NCBI GenBank assembly: GCA_030141605.1
Contig: JAQGDQ010000033.1
Location: forward strand, 799,214-863,213
DNA length: 64,000 bases
Reading direction: 5' to 3'
DNA from: Tubiluchus corallicola
Lineage: Eukaryota; Priapulida; Priapulimorpha; Priapulimorphida; Tubiluchidae
The position numbers and the translations under genes are program-made. Under the pieces are notes generated by a model. It was not told where the DNA came from and ran no database searches. It saw only the letters and a program-made list of their open reading frames with translations. Shown here one piece after another: positions 49,422 through 58,694 of the stretch (its first letter is position 1; each line of letters begins with the position of its first letter).

Positions 49422-52400
49422 TTATATGTCACTATATTGACTATAAGTACCGAAACTTAAATCGTATCGGGTGGAGGCATTCCTTCGTTGCTGTCGGTTC
49501 TTATATCTTCTGTAGCAAACCAGGCTGATAATGACGATTGTACCTACAATGATGACTCCGACTGTGATGCCAATAAGTAATGCCACGCTAGAGTTCATAC
49601 CTACTGTAAAACAAATTACTCGTTTATTACGAAAAAGCCCTTAATGTGTGTTGTAAATAATCTTTTAAAAATAATTTTGATTATTTCAGAAATATTAATC
49701 GTGTTCTTGATTTTATGTCAAGGTTCATAAAGTGCTTAGTAGATGCGGTTGTAGGATCCTGTGTTAATTCAGCCTGCATGCTCATCGCACAAGACTTATT
49801 TATCTCCATAAAAAGCAGAAAAATGCATTTTTTCCATAAAATTTTGGCAATAGTTACACTTACTGGGTTTACCACAGGCGGTTCCTGATTTCGTAGTAGA
49901 GATGTTTTCATACGGTGTTTTGCAAGTGCAGTTGTAGGATCCTATGGTGTTTGTGCAGTCTGCATGCTCATCACACAGGTTAAGATTGCCGTGTAAACAT
50001 TCGTCCACATCTGGAAGTCATCAGTATCATGTAATTATAATATTAATTTAAATATTAAATTGTTTATATCTTCTGTATAAATATCTAAATGCAATACCAT
50101 CCATTAAAGAGAGATCAACAGTGTAACTGGTTTTCAGAAAAAAGTACTTCTGAGTGAACAGGATGAGTAAACGGTTGAGTATACCACTTTTTCAGTAGAA
50201 TAAGTCAGTGTGACACATTGTATGCTCTCGTGGTTCACTTTGACAGTTTCCCTGTCATATTGTCACATGACCATAATTTAAAGATTTCCTTTTAGCAAAT
50301 CTCCCTTAGGCATTTACATATTTTAAAAAAGATTTTTTCATTTTTCTAGAGTGTATTTTTGGTTCAGTAAACCCTCAAAAAATTTTAATATCTTAGACCT
50401 ATTGACCTAAATTCATTTGCATTCAAATAATGTATGTATGAAAAATTTTAATGCATTTTTAAAGTGACAACAGACCTGTTAGAGCTACCGTATTTAGATG
50501 CACAACAACTTTCTGATCAGCTGCAAATTCCCTTGACAGTGTTTCCAGTATGGTATCTATAACTGTCTGCAATATGCTTCTTGTGTCCCTGGAGAAATCT
50601 GTACTGACCTTCAATACTAGTTCTACGTGAATCTGCACCAAAACACTATTGGCTTCTCTTCTTTTTCTCCTCTTTGTTTTATTTTCACTAAATTAAAGAA
50701 ATTTATTGATGGTATCAAGCAGAATTAGCTGAACAACTGCTTTAATAAACTTTGGTCGAAATATAATGAATGTATCAATAGTCACAATTTTGACCTTAAA
50801 CTTACGCATCTAACATAGCAATATTAATATGAGTCAGTCAGTACAATAAAAATTATGCTTCTTAATAAAAATGTTTAACTCACTTGTGGGTTATGTGTAT
50901 TGTGATTGACATAACATCATTTATGACATTTGCAGTATAAAGACCATCTTTTATCTGAAACAAACAAGATTTTACCACAGACTGCTAAATGCCATATATG
51001 AATGAAAGGCTGGCATTAGTCAGTAAATTTACTATTCTACCGCTTGCTTACAAGTTTATGTGCTGGTTAACTGTTGCTTTTTTCGTGATAGCAAACCTGC
51101 AAACTTTAATGTTCTAAATTTCTAATGATTCTATTGGCTTTTTAATCAGCTGTCTTGCTCACGCTCTGTCCGTTTCTAACGTATCTGTCAATTTTCTACA
51201 AAATATTTATATTTACTTTTAGCAGAAGTAATGCCTCAATGTCGTCTTCTTCAAGTGTGTCCATCCCAATTAGTGTAGCATTGAATTCCAAGTGATACCA
51301 TTCTACATTACCTGTTAAAAAGTATCATTGAATTAAGTATGGTGCTGATTTTTGGTTTTTAGATTTTTTGATAGCTTATGTCACTTAATGTATAGTTGCA
51401 CTTAAAATACTTAAAACAGAATGTGTACCTGATTTTAAGATAGTGAGTATATCCATATGAGTGCCAGCTAAGTGGGATAAGATAGGCATTGCCAAATCTT
51501 CTAGGTTTATCGAAACCACGGTTGATGTCTCATTTGTTAGTTCCATTATGTTTTCAAACCATGTATGTGTGTCAATGTATTGGAATTGTTGAGTAATGTC
51601 AGTTGTTGCAGTTGTATCAACTAACATATCTGATGTGAAACTCCTGTTTTGCAAAGCTTGTGTGTTGTCAGCAGTAATATCATTTTCGAACTTCACTGTA
51701 CCATCAGTTGTGAATTCTCCAGTGGTGTAATGACTAGTTCGTGAAATATTAATACCAATTGTTTCTCTGAACATAGTTACTGCTGTTTGATTGGTAATTT
51801 CTACAAACAAGGTTGTTTTAGTGGCACCAACTGCCTCCCCAGATGTAATTTCATCAGTCATCTGTTCAGTGACAGTCGCTGGCACTGTATGTTTTGTAAC
51901 ACTGTCATCAGTATCATGTTTCATTGCTTGAATATTGCTATATTCTGTTGTCAAAGTGACATTTGCGTGCGCTTGGTTGTTCGACTGTTGGGACTTTATT
52001 TTGTCAATGGCTACCACATCCACATAAAACCCAGACATTTCCCCTAGCTCATTAGTGTTGAAAATTATTCGGATGTAATGTCCGTGGAACACGTCTGATG
52101 GCGGTTTCATATTGCCACAGTACATTTCTGTATGTAGTTCTATGTTCCTGTAATATCTGATGATTTTTACGTGATCATAAGCTTCATCGTTACAACTTGC
52201 AGGATTGGAATCCACTTCAAAGTGTTGAAATTCTAGATTCACTAGTTGGTCAGGCTCTGCTTTGATAATTATGTCACAGTAAGAGTAAGGATCATATACA
52301 TTAGGAAAGTTTGGACTGCTGATCGTACCATTGACATGCAAGCAAGAGCCAATGTTTTTGTCTTGAACATTGGTGTCCTCTATTGCTGCTCTAATCATTT

Positions 52401-53748
52401 CCAGAATTCTTTGCTGCCGGTCGCTTTTTTGGTTAATGTCAATAGTTTTAAGTAGCTGTAGACAGGATAAAATACTCCATGATTTTTTCGGTTGGTTTTC
52501 AACAGAACTAGCGACTGAGCAAACCTTACTGAGAAAGCCGAGTGCGAAGACGCTGGACGTCGGTACCTTTGCAATATCCTCATAACTGCTTGTAATGGCA
52601 TTAAATATTTCAATTAGTTCCCGTTCTTTATCTGATATCATAAAGTCACGCTTTAGTCTGACTTTTGATATGTCGCCTAGAAGAAACACAAGACGTTTGC
52701 TTTAATTTGAAATACACAGTTATAAAATATTTTGAGCAGCAACAGTTGTGTTCTTACTAACTGGGTAGTGATTTAGCTTACTTAGTCGACAAGTGCAAAA
52801 GTAATACGTGGGCCTAGCAGACTAAAGATTTCGTGCATCCCTGTAGACAGCAATAACAAAACTGGTACTGCACCTTCTGTTAGTTTAATATTAATTTTAG
52901 TAGATGATGCTACAGCCTAGTGACATTTGATAACAAAGAAGATGTAACTTTTAAGCTGGTACCCTTTAATTTAACACTAGTTGCTTTTGTAAAGGCTAGA
53001 GCACTAACTCATATGCCATTCGTAACTGCAATATGTAAACCGATGTTACAACAAAGGTAATGTTCAGTCATCCTCTCAGTCATTAAAAAGATCAGTTCAG
53101 TACACGATCTAACGGCGATTTATTCCCTATGATAAATTACTGCAATATTCAAGCAGCTATGATGGCTCTTAAACCCGCATCATTTATGCCCTCAAGCATA
53201 GCTACATCAAAATAAGGGTCTCTTATATTATAATAAAAACGTAACGTATTGCATTATGCGTAGCAGCAAAGATAATTAAAATAGACGAAACGAAAAGAGG
53301 TGAATTGTCATAATAGCCCCATATCTGCATTCCAGATGCCCCTGCATTCAACGTAGAGTTAGTGTCTCTTATTTAGAGCTTTATTATGAAGTGTTCTTGA
53401 AGTACACTTACCTACGTTTTTTCTGATGGTTTCGACAGCTGACGAGAAATAGGCACCAAACTCCTGTTAAATAAAAAGAATTGCGTGTATGATAGTGAAT
53501 ATGACTATTATTTATTGTCTCTTTAGAGTTTAGGCACATTAGGAATAAAACTTAGCTTTATTTGAATTAGCATTTTTAATTACAAAGCAAGAAAGCGCTT
53601 TAATTAGCATTAGTATTTACCCATTGCATACCTGTGACAGTTTCGGTTTCTTGATTGCTTGAAACTGTTGTAATATAGCGATTGATAAGCACAATAAAAT
53701 AAGACACGCAACACATTTTTTTGCTTTAGCAATTTTTTGGTTATACAT
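49422..53748 (-). CDS. CUB-SEA-EGF type I membrane protein, 8 exons, 704 aa
   Basis: Exons (minus): 53748-53632, 53463-53412, 52676-51429, 51311-51217, 50954-50884, 50687-50476, 50010-49873, 49603-49422; all phases agree. Order: hydrophobic N-terminal segment (CVACLILLCLSIAIL, residues 12-26; signal peptide or anchor), helical region (about 57-160), CUB domain 168-279 with Cys168/190/218/243 and an acidic calcium-site pattern, Ser/Thr-rich stalk 280-460, SEA domain about 475-598, calcium-binding EGF 599-644 (DVDEC start, six Cys), transmembrane helix 651-676, basic then Tyr-rich tail 677-704. The SEA strand pair that normally holds the G-SVVV self-cleavage site reads ANSVLVQ and is preceded by RRKRR (534-538), a furin-type site. 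Likely role: processed cell-surface adhesion or receptor protein. I do not recognise a named orthologue. A possible AATAAA (minus) is at 49394-49389, very close to the stop. Confidence 0.85.
49690..49795 (-). pseudogene. Decayed duplicate of the EGF exon (pseudo-exon) in the last intron of the SEA/EGF gene
   Basis: Read on the minus strand, the intron 49872-49604 holds a second copy of much of exon 7: GATGAGCATGCAG, then AACAC, then GGATCCTACAAC are identical in order and near-identical in spacing to the real exon at 50010-49873. Most EGF cysteine codons are lost, and I see no intact exon boundaries. It is a tandem exon duplication that has decayed. Confidence 0.8.
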
Positions 53749-55457: not shown

Positions 55458-56225
55458 TTATTTCTTCTTTCTGCTCGTTTTTCCTGATATCATGTCCATA
55501 ATCGTGTTGATAAGTATGACGCGCTTAATGGTCTCTCGCTCTTCTGCTTCCATTTTCTTAATCAGTTCTTCGTGCGCCTTTATTGCAGCTGCGTCGGGCG
55601 TTACTTCTACACTTACTGTAGTTCCATATTCAGTAACAACTACTTCCACCGCTTCTGTTATTATTTTTATTGTAGGCTCAGTAGTTGTAGTCGTAGTCGA
55701 TTCAACTTCTTGCTCTGACGAGGCATTGGTTGACTTCAGTTCTGCCGAAGAGGCAGTCATTTCTCTAATTATTGGTGTGATCGCAGTACTAGTTTGAAGC
55801 AACTTTAATAACTCTTCTGTTTCGTTGACGTTAGTAACACTTACAGTTTCATTCGCTTCAGCCATAGCTTCGTCATAGCCCTGTTCAGCAGGCCATGGTT
55901 CTTCAGTTCCAGTTTCATTACTTTCAGCTTGCCTAGTCTCATTGACAACATAGTTGCCACCAGTCCCTTTGACAGCACCAGTAATATTCTTCTGCACCTC
56001 CTGCTGTTCCTGTTTCTCACCAGCCAAAGCAGCCCCTGCAGTTTTGTTGCCCACTAAACTACTCGCTTGGCCATGTTCTTCACCTTCCTGTTCACCTTGT
56101 AACTCACTCGCCGATGGTTTCTTCGACATCACGATAAAGGTGACAGCTAGTACGACCACAATTAAGATTACCAGGACGGCAAATCCAACAGCCAGTCGTT
56201 TGTAATTCTTAAATTCCATTCTCAC
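55458..56225 (-). CDS. Intronless 255-aa type II membrane protein, cysteine-free, glycosylation-rich
   Basis: One uninterrupted frame. A basic N-terminus (KNYKR) precedes a strong hydrophobic helix at residues 11-33, then SKK. The remainder is a low-complexity Ala/Glu/Thr/Val ectodomain, predicting a type II single-pass protein. Seven N-glycosylation sequons (N60, N80, N95, N103, N125, N134, N167), a run of seven threonines near 177-182 broken only by Glu/Ser neighbours, no cysteine, and a Lys/Glu-rich helix ending in RKKK. Two start codons are possible, Met1 or Met3. I recognise no family. Composition fits a mucin-like or stalk-type surface protein. It is divergent to the 336-aa gene, with 1458 bp between start codons. 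The antisense frame at 55414-55797 is its shadow. Confidence 0.75.
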   Translation of the reverse strand: MRMEFKNYKRLAVGFAVLVILIVVVLAVTFIVMSKKPSASELQGEQEGEEHGQASSLVGNKTAGAALAGEKQEQQEVQKNITGAVKGTGGNYVVNETRQAESNETGTEEPWPAEQGYDEAMAEANETVSVTNVNETEELLKLLQTSTAITPIIREMTASSAELKSTNASSEQEVESTTTTTTEPTIKIITEAVEVVVTEYGTTVSVEVTPDAAAIKAHEELIKKMEAEERETIKRVILINTIMDMISGKTSRKKK

Positions 56226-57076
56226 GCTAAAATTTCTCTTGACTGTTACAACTGATACGCTACACGTACTTCAGTGTGTATAAATCAAGTAACTGTACAT
56301 AAAAATTGTCACAGATAGGTACACCCAGATATTACATGCCTCGAAGTGGCTTCTTTTCCTACAAATGCTAAAAGTACTTTGCGTGTACTAATCTATTCTA
56401 ATTGCACGTATCACCTTATTGACGATGATGATTAATCTCATTTTAAATACTTTATCTGCATAAATGGGCTTTTAGTTACGGGATTATAATTTAACTTAAT
56501 TATAAACACACATACGCATGCACGTCCGCACGCACACGCGCAATTAAATGTATGCAATTGTGTATAGTTACTACGACTGTTAAAAATTATAACCAAAAAA
56601 CTACATTTGCCGCTATTAAAATTATTACGCAATATGCCAAATCGCTGACTAAGATCATTAGGTAGAATATTTGAATTTATCTGAGCACATTTAGGTCTGG
56701 TGTGTACACCAGTTAAGTCACTAAATTTTCAGTATTTAAATAATCACCTTTTTAAAGGAAATCGATTTCGGCCTCTAATAATTAAGATTTATCTTGTGCC
56801 GTACCGGTACGTACTTTTTATTAATTTACAGTTTCATATGGACTGGATCGACCTGCAAAATCCTTGCAGACGAAGTAGAAGGAGATACTAAGCGCTTATT
56901 ACACATAACTTTATTGGTATACACCAGGTAGACTTTTTAAAATGTACCTTCACTTCAGTAATTTTTTTCCCGAATGCGCATTTTCTTTGAGAGACCCTTA
57001 ATACACTCTGAATGACAAGTACTTGCTGAAAACAAAGTCCAAATACCTAGGATAGGGTTAAGTCCAGGATACAGAA
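56226..57076. other. Divergent intergenic region, left part
   Basis: AT-rich with a small CA/CG-rich purine-pyrimidine alternation at about 56507-56541. Short frames only. The start codons of the two intronless membrane-protein genes lie on either side of this region and the next element. Confidence 0.5.
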
Positions 57077-57475: not shown

Positions 57476-57683
57476 TTTACGAATATCGACGATTGTTACT
57501 GTAGCAGACCTACCTCATTTCTTCCAGGCTGTAAAAGAAGCGTAGTCTACCTGCTGTACAAACAACTACCAATAGGCCGCCATAACCATCTACAGCCTAA
57601 TAACGCAGTGTAAACTGATGAATAGGTGCATTACTTTCTTGCCTGTTGTTTGTGTTTAGCGACTAACTGTCTCAGTAATCGTA

Positions 57684-58694
57684 ATGCCTGAATGGTGGGA
57701 CAGACTGAAGTCAATGAAGAAGAAAAATGCCGCGGTTGACATGAGCAGTTTCAAGATGCAAGTTATAGCCGTTTATGCGATGGTTGTCATTGTGGTACTG
57801 TGCTTTACTGTACCGTTCCTAGTGCACAGTCACCAGATCAAGAACCATAATAATGCAATTGCAGCACAACTTGAACTTAAAAATCAAAGTCGAGAAAACG
57901 ACACGTCATATCAAACTCTTTCACAAGAAGATGAATACAACACAGTTCTGGAAAAACTGTTAGACAAGTATGCTCAGTTTAAAGAAAAAATTGAAAATAT
58001 GAGCACACAGTATAACGCATTCGAAACAGAATTTAACAGTACGAAGGAAAATTATCGCACTTTTCTTGCAGCACTGGAGTTGGTTCAGGAGCATTACAAC
58101 ACTTTAGCTAAAGAACATCAAGAAGTAATGTCAACCTACAATGAATCTGATATTGAACATGTAATTGATGAGGTGATAGTGCAGGCAGGGACTGATGCAA
58201 AAGCACTGCTGAGAGAAACAATGGAACATTTTAAAGAAATTGGAAAGTTCTTGGAAGAAACTAAAGACGAGTATGAGGGTCTGAGTGCTGAACTGCGGGA
58301 CACTGGTGTAGAGTATATTGAGCTTCGCAGAGAACCACATGATAATCTAATACACGAGATTCTGGAGTTGGATAAGTTACAAACTGAACTAGAAAATGAA
58401 CTACATGAAGCGGACTTAAAGTACAGTGCACTAGATGATTTTAACCTGACGTCGTTAGATGAAGCTTTTAAACAGTCTAGTGACACGTACAGTGAGATAA
58501 AAGGAAAGGTACACGAAACACATCAACAACAATATAGTTTGGAATTAGAAATCCTTGAAACAGGAAGCCTGTACGCTAACCTGGTAAAAAATCTGAACGC
58601 AATCGAAGAACAACGCAAACAGTTGTCTGAAACATTTAGAAGAATAGAAGAGTATGCGGCTTTGTGGGAAGTTGTAATCGGAAATCACACATAG
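57684..58694 (+). CDS. Intronless 336-aa type II membrane protein with coiled-coil ectodomain
   Basis: One uninterrupted frame beginning MPEWWDRLKSMKKK. The cytosolic basic head is followed by a transmembrane helix at residues 25-47 and an extracellular or lumenal region of about 290 aa that is Glu/Lys/Leu-rich with heptad-like spacing throughout, predicting a long coiled coil. There are seven N-glycosylation sequons (NQS, NDT, NMS, NST, NES, NLT and NHT at the C-terminus). The only cysteine is inside the membrane helix. The design recalls coiled-coil stalk proteins such as scavenger-receptor or Golgi type II proteins, but no family is recognised. It faces away from the 255-aa gene, which has the same topology. 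Confidence 0.8.
   Translation: MPEWWDRLKSMKKKNAAVDMSSFKMQVIAVYAMVVIVVLCFTVPFLVHSHQIKNHNNAIAAQLELKNQSRENDTSYQTLSQEDEYNTVLEKLLDKYAQFKEKIENMSTQYNAFETEFNSTKENYRTFLAALELVQEHYNTLAKEHQEVMSTYNESDIEHVIDEVIVQAGTDAKALLRETMEHFKEIGKFLEETKDEYEGLSAELRDTGVEYIELRREPHDNLIHEILELDKLQTELENELHEADLKYSALDDFNLTSLDEAFKQSSDTYSEIKGKVHETHQQQYSLELEILETGSLYANLVKNLNAIEEQRKQLSETFRRIEEYAALWEVVIGNHT

Follow-up and report, generated by a model that had tools for sequence, protein, structure and literature searches.

A candidate convertase-cut SEA-like domain in a single-pass membrane protein of Tubiluchus corallicola

Canonical SEA domains break themselves at a Gly-Ser bond in the loop that joins strand 2 to strand 3. A gene of the priapulid Tubiluchus corallicola raises the question of whether this self-cleavage can be given up in favour of a cut made by an enzyme. 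The gene lies in a stretch of 64,000 nucleotides of contig JAQGDQ010000033.1, hereafter called the window, where it occupies positions 49422-53748 of the minus strand. It encodes a protein in which a run of basic residues stands at the place where a SEA domain would be expected to cut itself. The analysis presented here suggests as the likeliest reading that autoproteolysis has been exchanged for convertase cleavage in this protein; the basic site itself is real, and it is coherent and probably functional.

Reconstruction of the gene from its splice sites revealed eight exons with AG/GT at all inner borders, whose joined frame is open and encodes a type I membrane protein of 707 residues. Its parts follow each other in the order signal peptide, helical region, CUB domain, Thr-rich stalk, SEA-like domain, calcium-binding EGF domain, membrane helix and short tail (Table 1). 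The CUB domain (E-value of 1.4e-16) and the EGF_CA domain (aa 599-644) are the only Pfam matches above the cut-off, and in the stalk (aa 276-473, about 198 residues) Thr accounts for 19% of the residues, Ser for 7% and Pro for 1%. The splice-site gene model and Pfam together recovered what the original prediction, made from the DNA letters, had named: the gene with its basic site and membrane helix, and the two domains, CUB and EGF. Neither the SEA part nor the N-terminal portion of the protein, used as a query against the same genome, revealed a paralogue; only the gene itself and weak CUB matches elsewhere were returned. The segment between the signal peptide and the CUB domain (aa 40-165, in exon 3) looks helical and has no Pfam match; shortly past the signal peptide it contains a furin consensus, RLKR, followed by DF (window 52648-52659, minus strand), at which an N-terminal propeptide is possibly removed. 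At the other end of the protein, the terminal S-D-I fits the class I PDZ-ligand pattern.

Table 1. Exons of the gene and features of the presumed cleavage loop, in window coordinates.
Feature	Position	Strand	Basis
Exon 1: start codon ATG and signal peptide (MYNQKIAKAKKCVACLILLCLSIAILQQFQA...)	53632..53748	-	Open frame, canonical donor; hydrophobic core read directly
Exon 2	53412..53463	-	AG/GT borders, in frame
Exon 3: N-terminal helical region with RLKR (aa 63-66), CUB (aa 171-275), Thr-rich stalk	51429..52676	-	Splice sites, Pfam, composition
Exon 4 (95 nt, phase 1 to 0): SEA-like domain, part 1 (presumed strand 1, beginning of helix 1)	51217..51311	-	
Exon 5 (71 nt, phase 0 to 2): last part of helix 1, presumed strand 2	50884..50954	-	
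Exon 6 (212 nt, phase 2 to 1): basic loop, then presumed strand 3, helix 2 and strand 4	50476..50687	-	
Exon 7: calcium-binding EGF	49864..50010	-	Pfam EGF_CA, E-value 1.6e-9
Exon 8: membrane helix, short tail ending YSQYSDI	49422..49603	-	Hydrophobic stretch read directly
Insert ENKTKRRKRREA (aa 529-540), with N-K-T glycosylation sequon	50651..50686	-	Follows the phase-2 exon junction directly; presumed site of the SEA cleavage loop
RRKRR (aa 534-538), matching the furin-type consensus R-X-[KR]-R; cut predicted after aa 538	50657..50671	-	
NSVLVQ (aa 541-546), counterpart of GSVVVQ: Gly to Asn, Ser kept	50633..50650	-	Sequence read directly

Exons 4 to 6, joined in frame through canonical AG/GT borders, read GNVEWYHLEFNATLIGMDTLEEDDIEALLLLK/IKDGLYTANVINDVMSITIHITHN/ENKTKRRKRREANSVLVQIHVELVLKVSTDFSRDTRSILQTVIDTILETLSREFAADQKVVVHLNTVALT, where slashes mark exon junctions, and contain the segment KTKRRKRREANSVLVQ exactly as it had first been quoted. 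The insert immediately precedes NSVLVQ, and the GSVVVQ of MUC1 with which the latter is compared was confirmed against PDB chains. The claim that the cleavage Gly has become Asn was borne out; Ser and V-x-V-Q are retained and Gly alone is changed; the Gly-Ser that characterises the strand 2-3 loop of self-cleaving SEA domains is thus Asn-Ser in the window. RRKRR, which had been placed directly before this Asn, is indeed present, although two residues, Glu-Ala, separate it from Asn-Ser. The R-X-[KR]-R consensus is present in the window domain, its position in the strand 2-3 loop being deduced from the exon junction and NSVLVQ and not from a structure.

Five consecutive basic residues were found anywhere in the ectodomain in 0.24% of ectodomain shuffles, and inside the 12-residue loop in 0.015% of SEA-region shuffles (P about 2e-4), so that such a run is unlikely to have arisen in the loop by chance. 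The R-X-[KR]-R consensus fell inside the loop in 0.28% of SEA-region shuffles. Its mere occurrence somewhere in the protein is unremarkable, because RLKR provides a second instance near the N-terminus and 5% of the shuffles of the window protein contain one. In-frame loss of the basic stretch through other acceptors (AG at the AGG and AGA codons) is conceivable on paper, but these acceptors lie downstream of the first AG and have no pyrimidine tract, and their use was judged unlikely.

By sequence alone the window domain cannot be said to be a SEA domain. With or without the insert, it gave no match to Pfam SEA (PF01390) at E-values up to 10, in a search that matched MUC1 (6e-14) and a canonical SEA domain of the same genome (4e-11, gene L015 described below). 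Custom SEA profiles built from MUC1, TMPRSS11, MUC16 and in-genome SEA domains gave 1.5-2.6 bits, which 5-10% of shuffles equalled and which are not significant, and exon-by-exon pairwise scores were not significant either. The best Pfam match of the domain, below the threshold, was to an unrelated spore germination domain. An AlphaFold model of exon 6 alone has two helices and no strands (mean pLDDT of 69) and is uninformative because half of the sheet is missing from the input; that of the contiguous L034 exon (pLDDT of 43) is also uninformative. The SEA fold is an alpha/beta sandwich of the order beta-alpha-beta-beta-alpha-beta, and the strand-helix order given in the original prediction found no confirmation in these models. 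The SEA assignment of the original prediction therefore found no significant sequence support in Pfam or the profiles, and what speaks for it are exon phases and sizes that match those of canonical SEA genes in the same genome.

Gene structure is a better test of SEA identity than sequence in this case. A loose PF01390 search of the genome yielded four other SEA-like genes (L015, L035, L016 and L034), which were rebuilt exon by exon. Two of them have a canonical Gly-Ser: L015 (Pfam SEA, 4.4e-11) reads EDVLVGEMTIENLNYQPEYKNPESKQYKQLEAKVKTG/IKEALSYDPHLNIIDDIHILEFR/PGSVKTRF..., with ...LEFR/PGSVKTRF at the junction, and L035 (Pfam SEA, 1.2e-11) reads ...LEEQVQSA/MSKILSAMREYYAALQVLEFR/NGSISVTYVLIF..., with ...LEFR/NGSISVTY at the junction. 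The exon phases (1)-0-2-(1) are common to the window domain, L015 and L035, and in all three the second SEA intron coincides with the end of strand 2 and shortly precedes the cleavage motif. The phases of the first SEA exon are shared with L034 as well, which retains the phase-0 intron, while L016, the third SEA-like gene with Gly-Ser (FR/PNNVGGSYITV; weak Pfam SEA match of its first part, 5.6e-4), retains the phase-2 intron and has lost the phase-0 one. The SEA exons measure 95/71/212 nt in the window versus 110/68/170 nt in L015 and 119/62/170 nt in L035; exon 6 thus exceeds the canonical 170-nt exons by 42 nt, roughly what the insert, starting at the junction, would account for. The two inner phases alone would match by chance in one case in nine, and the joint match of size and phase has a probability of about 5e-4 in a rough simulation with the insert removed, a removal that was chosen after seeing the data. 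This match supports SEA identity as supporting, not defining, evidence. The canonical SEA domain of L015 sits in the L021 gene region (G000 contig C2185), where an EGF domain, a long exon of EPTPEPTTST mucin-type repeats, LDL-receptor type A-like modules and an SRCR-like exon were read by eye.

A second SEA-like domain of this genome, encoded on the minus strand at positions 1862-2203 of L034 (G000 contig C1488), also has a basic site: its presumed strand 2-3 loop (NTRHIRKRRQTSSDSFWSYVYFKFEQ) contains RKRR. The long second exon of this gene, reading ...DVVYISSDVSYFTNVQPDMNMKAIDGNTRHIRKRRQTSSDSFWSYVYFKFEQ..., puts RKRR immediately ahead of presumed strand 3, and farther downstream the gene passes into a run of N. 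L034 is considered a candidate SEA domain, since its Pfam match is sub-threshold (4.3e-4) and covers the first half only. At a separate locus (L026), the Notch of this genome has a heterodimerisation domain reading LTRSKRETGFIIG, with an RSKR site, and the convertase P domain was matched at at least five loci. The RKRR of L034 and the RSKR of Notch indicate that convertase sites occur in this kind of domain in this animal. One genome thus seems to carry Gly-Ser and basic versions of SEA side by side.

Since Ser, the nucleophile, is kept in the window domain, along with the V-x-V-Q strand and with Gly alone changed, the domain could still cut itself at Asn-Ser (aa 541-542), in which case the basic stretch would be an additional loop or a minor cleavage site beside the main one. 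A self-cut would fall three residues downstream of the convertase site, and the fragments would therefore look alike on a gel. We nevertheless regard continued self-cleavage as unlikely: Gly is retained in all three in-genome SEA genes without a basic insert (PGSV in L015, NGSI in L035 and GGSY in L016), and an insertion of 12-14 residues beside the scissile bond should relax the strain which, as in MUC1, drives SEA self-cleavage. To a similar degree it is improbable that the domain is SEA-like with a basic stretch that stays uncut in the animal, whether as a neutral purine-tract insertion or as a charged patch that binds glycosaminoglycans. The basic codons, AAG AGG AGA AAA AGA AGA, form a pure purine run at the start of the exon, which makes expansion of a neutral tract a fair competing reading, and the insert may be recent and neutral; an N-glycosylation sequon lies four residues upstream of the basic stretch. 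On the other hand, RRKRR meets the furin consensus twice, is followed by Glu-Ala and sits in the presumed counterpart of the loop used by Notch and GPR126, and RKRR of the L034 domain is encoded by codons (CGT AAA CGA CGG) that are not a purine tract.

Rather more improbable is the reading that the segment is not SEA at all but a small alpha/beta domain of another kind, or else a linker that folds poorly, and that its introns match by chance. The near-background SEA profile scores and the spore germination domain as the best, sub-threshold Pfam match would agree with it, but it would leave to coincidence the agreement in phases and exon sizes with two canonical SEA genes (about 5e-4 in the rough simulation, with the insert set aside post hoc), and the location of the segment between the stalk and the EGF-membrane segment is typical of SEA.

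Cleavage by a convertase into two associated halves is probable, because the basic residues appear to occupy the place of the usual self-cut, as they do in Notch and GPR126. The protein would be a single-pass surface receptor or a membrane-mucin-like protein, with a divergent SEA domain between the Thr-rich stalk and the EGF-membrane segment, into whose strand 2-3 loop about 12-14 residues carrying RRKRR would have been inserted. On its way through the Golgi, the protein would be cut after RRKRR (aa 538) by a furin-group proprotein convertase. The predicted outer fragment, of ~507 residues and 57 kDa plus glycans, would comprise the helical region, the CUB domain, the stalk and half of the SEA domain, and the anchored fragment, of ~169 residues and 19 kDa, the other half, the EGF domain, the membrane helix and the tail. 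The halves would be joined non-covalently through the SEA sheet as a heterodimer, and may part under pull or on unfolding of the domain; being separable in this way, they would allow the outer part to be shed. We hold it reasonably probable that a convertase cuts after aa 538 in the secretory pathway and that the SEA sheet holds the halves, leaving the outer part separable from the anchored part.

Comparable cuts are known. In Notch-2 and human GPR126, furin cuts the SEA domain between strands 2 and 3, in the loop where MUC1 cuts itself; cleaved GPR126 holds together in gel filtration, and zebrafish GPR126 is without the furin site (PMC6954182). Mutation of the furin site of GPR126 left activation through an N-terminal antibody unaffected (PMC9259995), a warning that such cuts may be dispensable. 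GPR126, absent from the original prediction, is a closer published precedent than Notch. Like the window protein, GPR126/ADGRG6 of human and mouse has a CUB domain on the outer fragment, and its SEA domain is cut by furin in the strand 2-3 loop into fragments that remain associated (PMC6954182), the cut in the window protein being a predicted one. The two differ in that GPR126 is a receptor of the seven-helix type and has pentraxin, HormR and GAIN domains, whereas the window protein has an EGF domain, a Thr-rich stalk and one membrane helix; its gene model and Pfam matches include neither a GAIN domain nor seven membrane helices.

The parallel to Notch that had been drawn at the outset holds in that both proteins have a SEA-like juxtamembrane domain with a furin-type site in the same presumed loop. 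Furin cuts the heterodimerisation domain of Notch there (S1 site) to give a heterodimer, and the Notch of this genome has LTRSKRE. Unlike Notch, the window protein has no LNR cap, its EGF domain stands after the SEA-like domain and not before it, and its tail is short and without ankyrin repeats; Pfam found no LNR repeats, NOD/NODP or ankyrin repeats in it.

The succession of stalk, SEA, EGF, membrane helix and short tail is shared with the SEA-type membrane mucins (MUC3/12/13/17 and MUC1), which are said to have arisen in vertebrates (PMC9578598). The tails of the MUC3 cluster end in a class I PDZ motif (PMC9578598), and the S-D-I end of the window protein could be a motif of the same kind. 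Membrane mucins cut themselves at Gly-Ser, whereas the window protein has Asn-Ser and RRKRR; it also differs from them in its N-terminal CUB domain and in a short Thr-rich stalk that is nearly free of Pro and does not form the long Pro-Thr-Ser domain characteristic of this group. In fibrocystin, a proprotein convertase cut produces a heterodimer at the cell surface, in which a SEA domain precedes the membrane (PMC13424714), but the convertase site is not said to lie in the SEA domain and the halves are described as disulphide-linked.

The window protein probably joins the known group of convertase-cut SEA proteins represented by Notch and GPR126. It is conceivable, though doubtful, that in this lineage, outside Notch and GPR126, SEA self-cleavage gave way to convertase cleavage on more than one occasion, bringing the time and place of the cut under enzymatic control. 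The routes would tentatively be an insertion at the phase-2 exon junction in the window gene and a long loop with RKRR in L034. If true, the convertase-cut SEA domain would be a repeatable route for SEA proteins and no peculiarity of Notch and GPR126, an insertion of ~14 codons at an exon junction would illustrate in a simple way how a domain can pass from cutting itself to being cut by an enzyme, and the result would be a natural experiment on the need of SEA domains for a cut. Added interest comes from the apparent presence of Gly-Ser and basic SEA domains in one genome and from the location of the basic insert at an exon junction.

Two more long open frames without a clear Pfam family adjoin the SEA gene, at window positions 55458-56270 (minus strand) and 57660-58694 (plus strand), and have an N-terminal membrane helix together with glycosylation sequons or a coiled coil.
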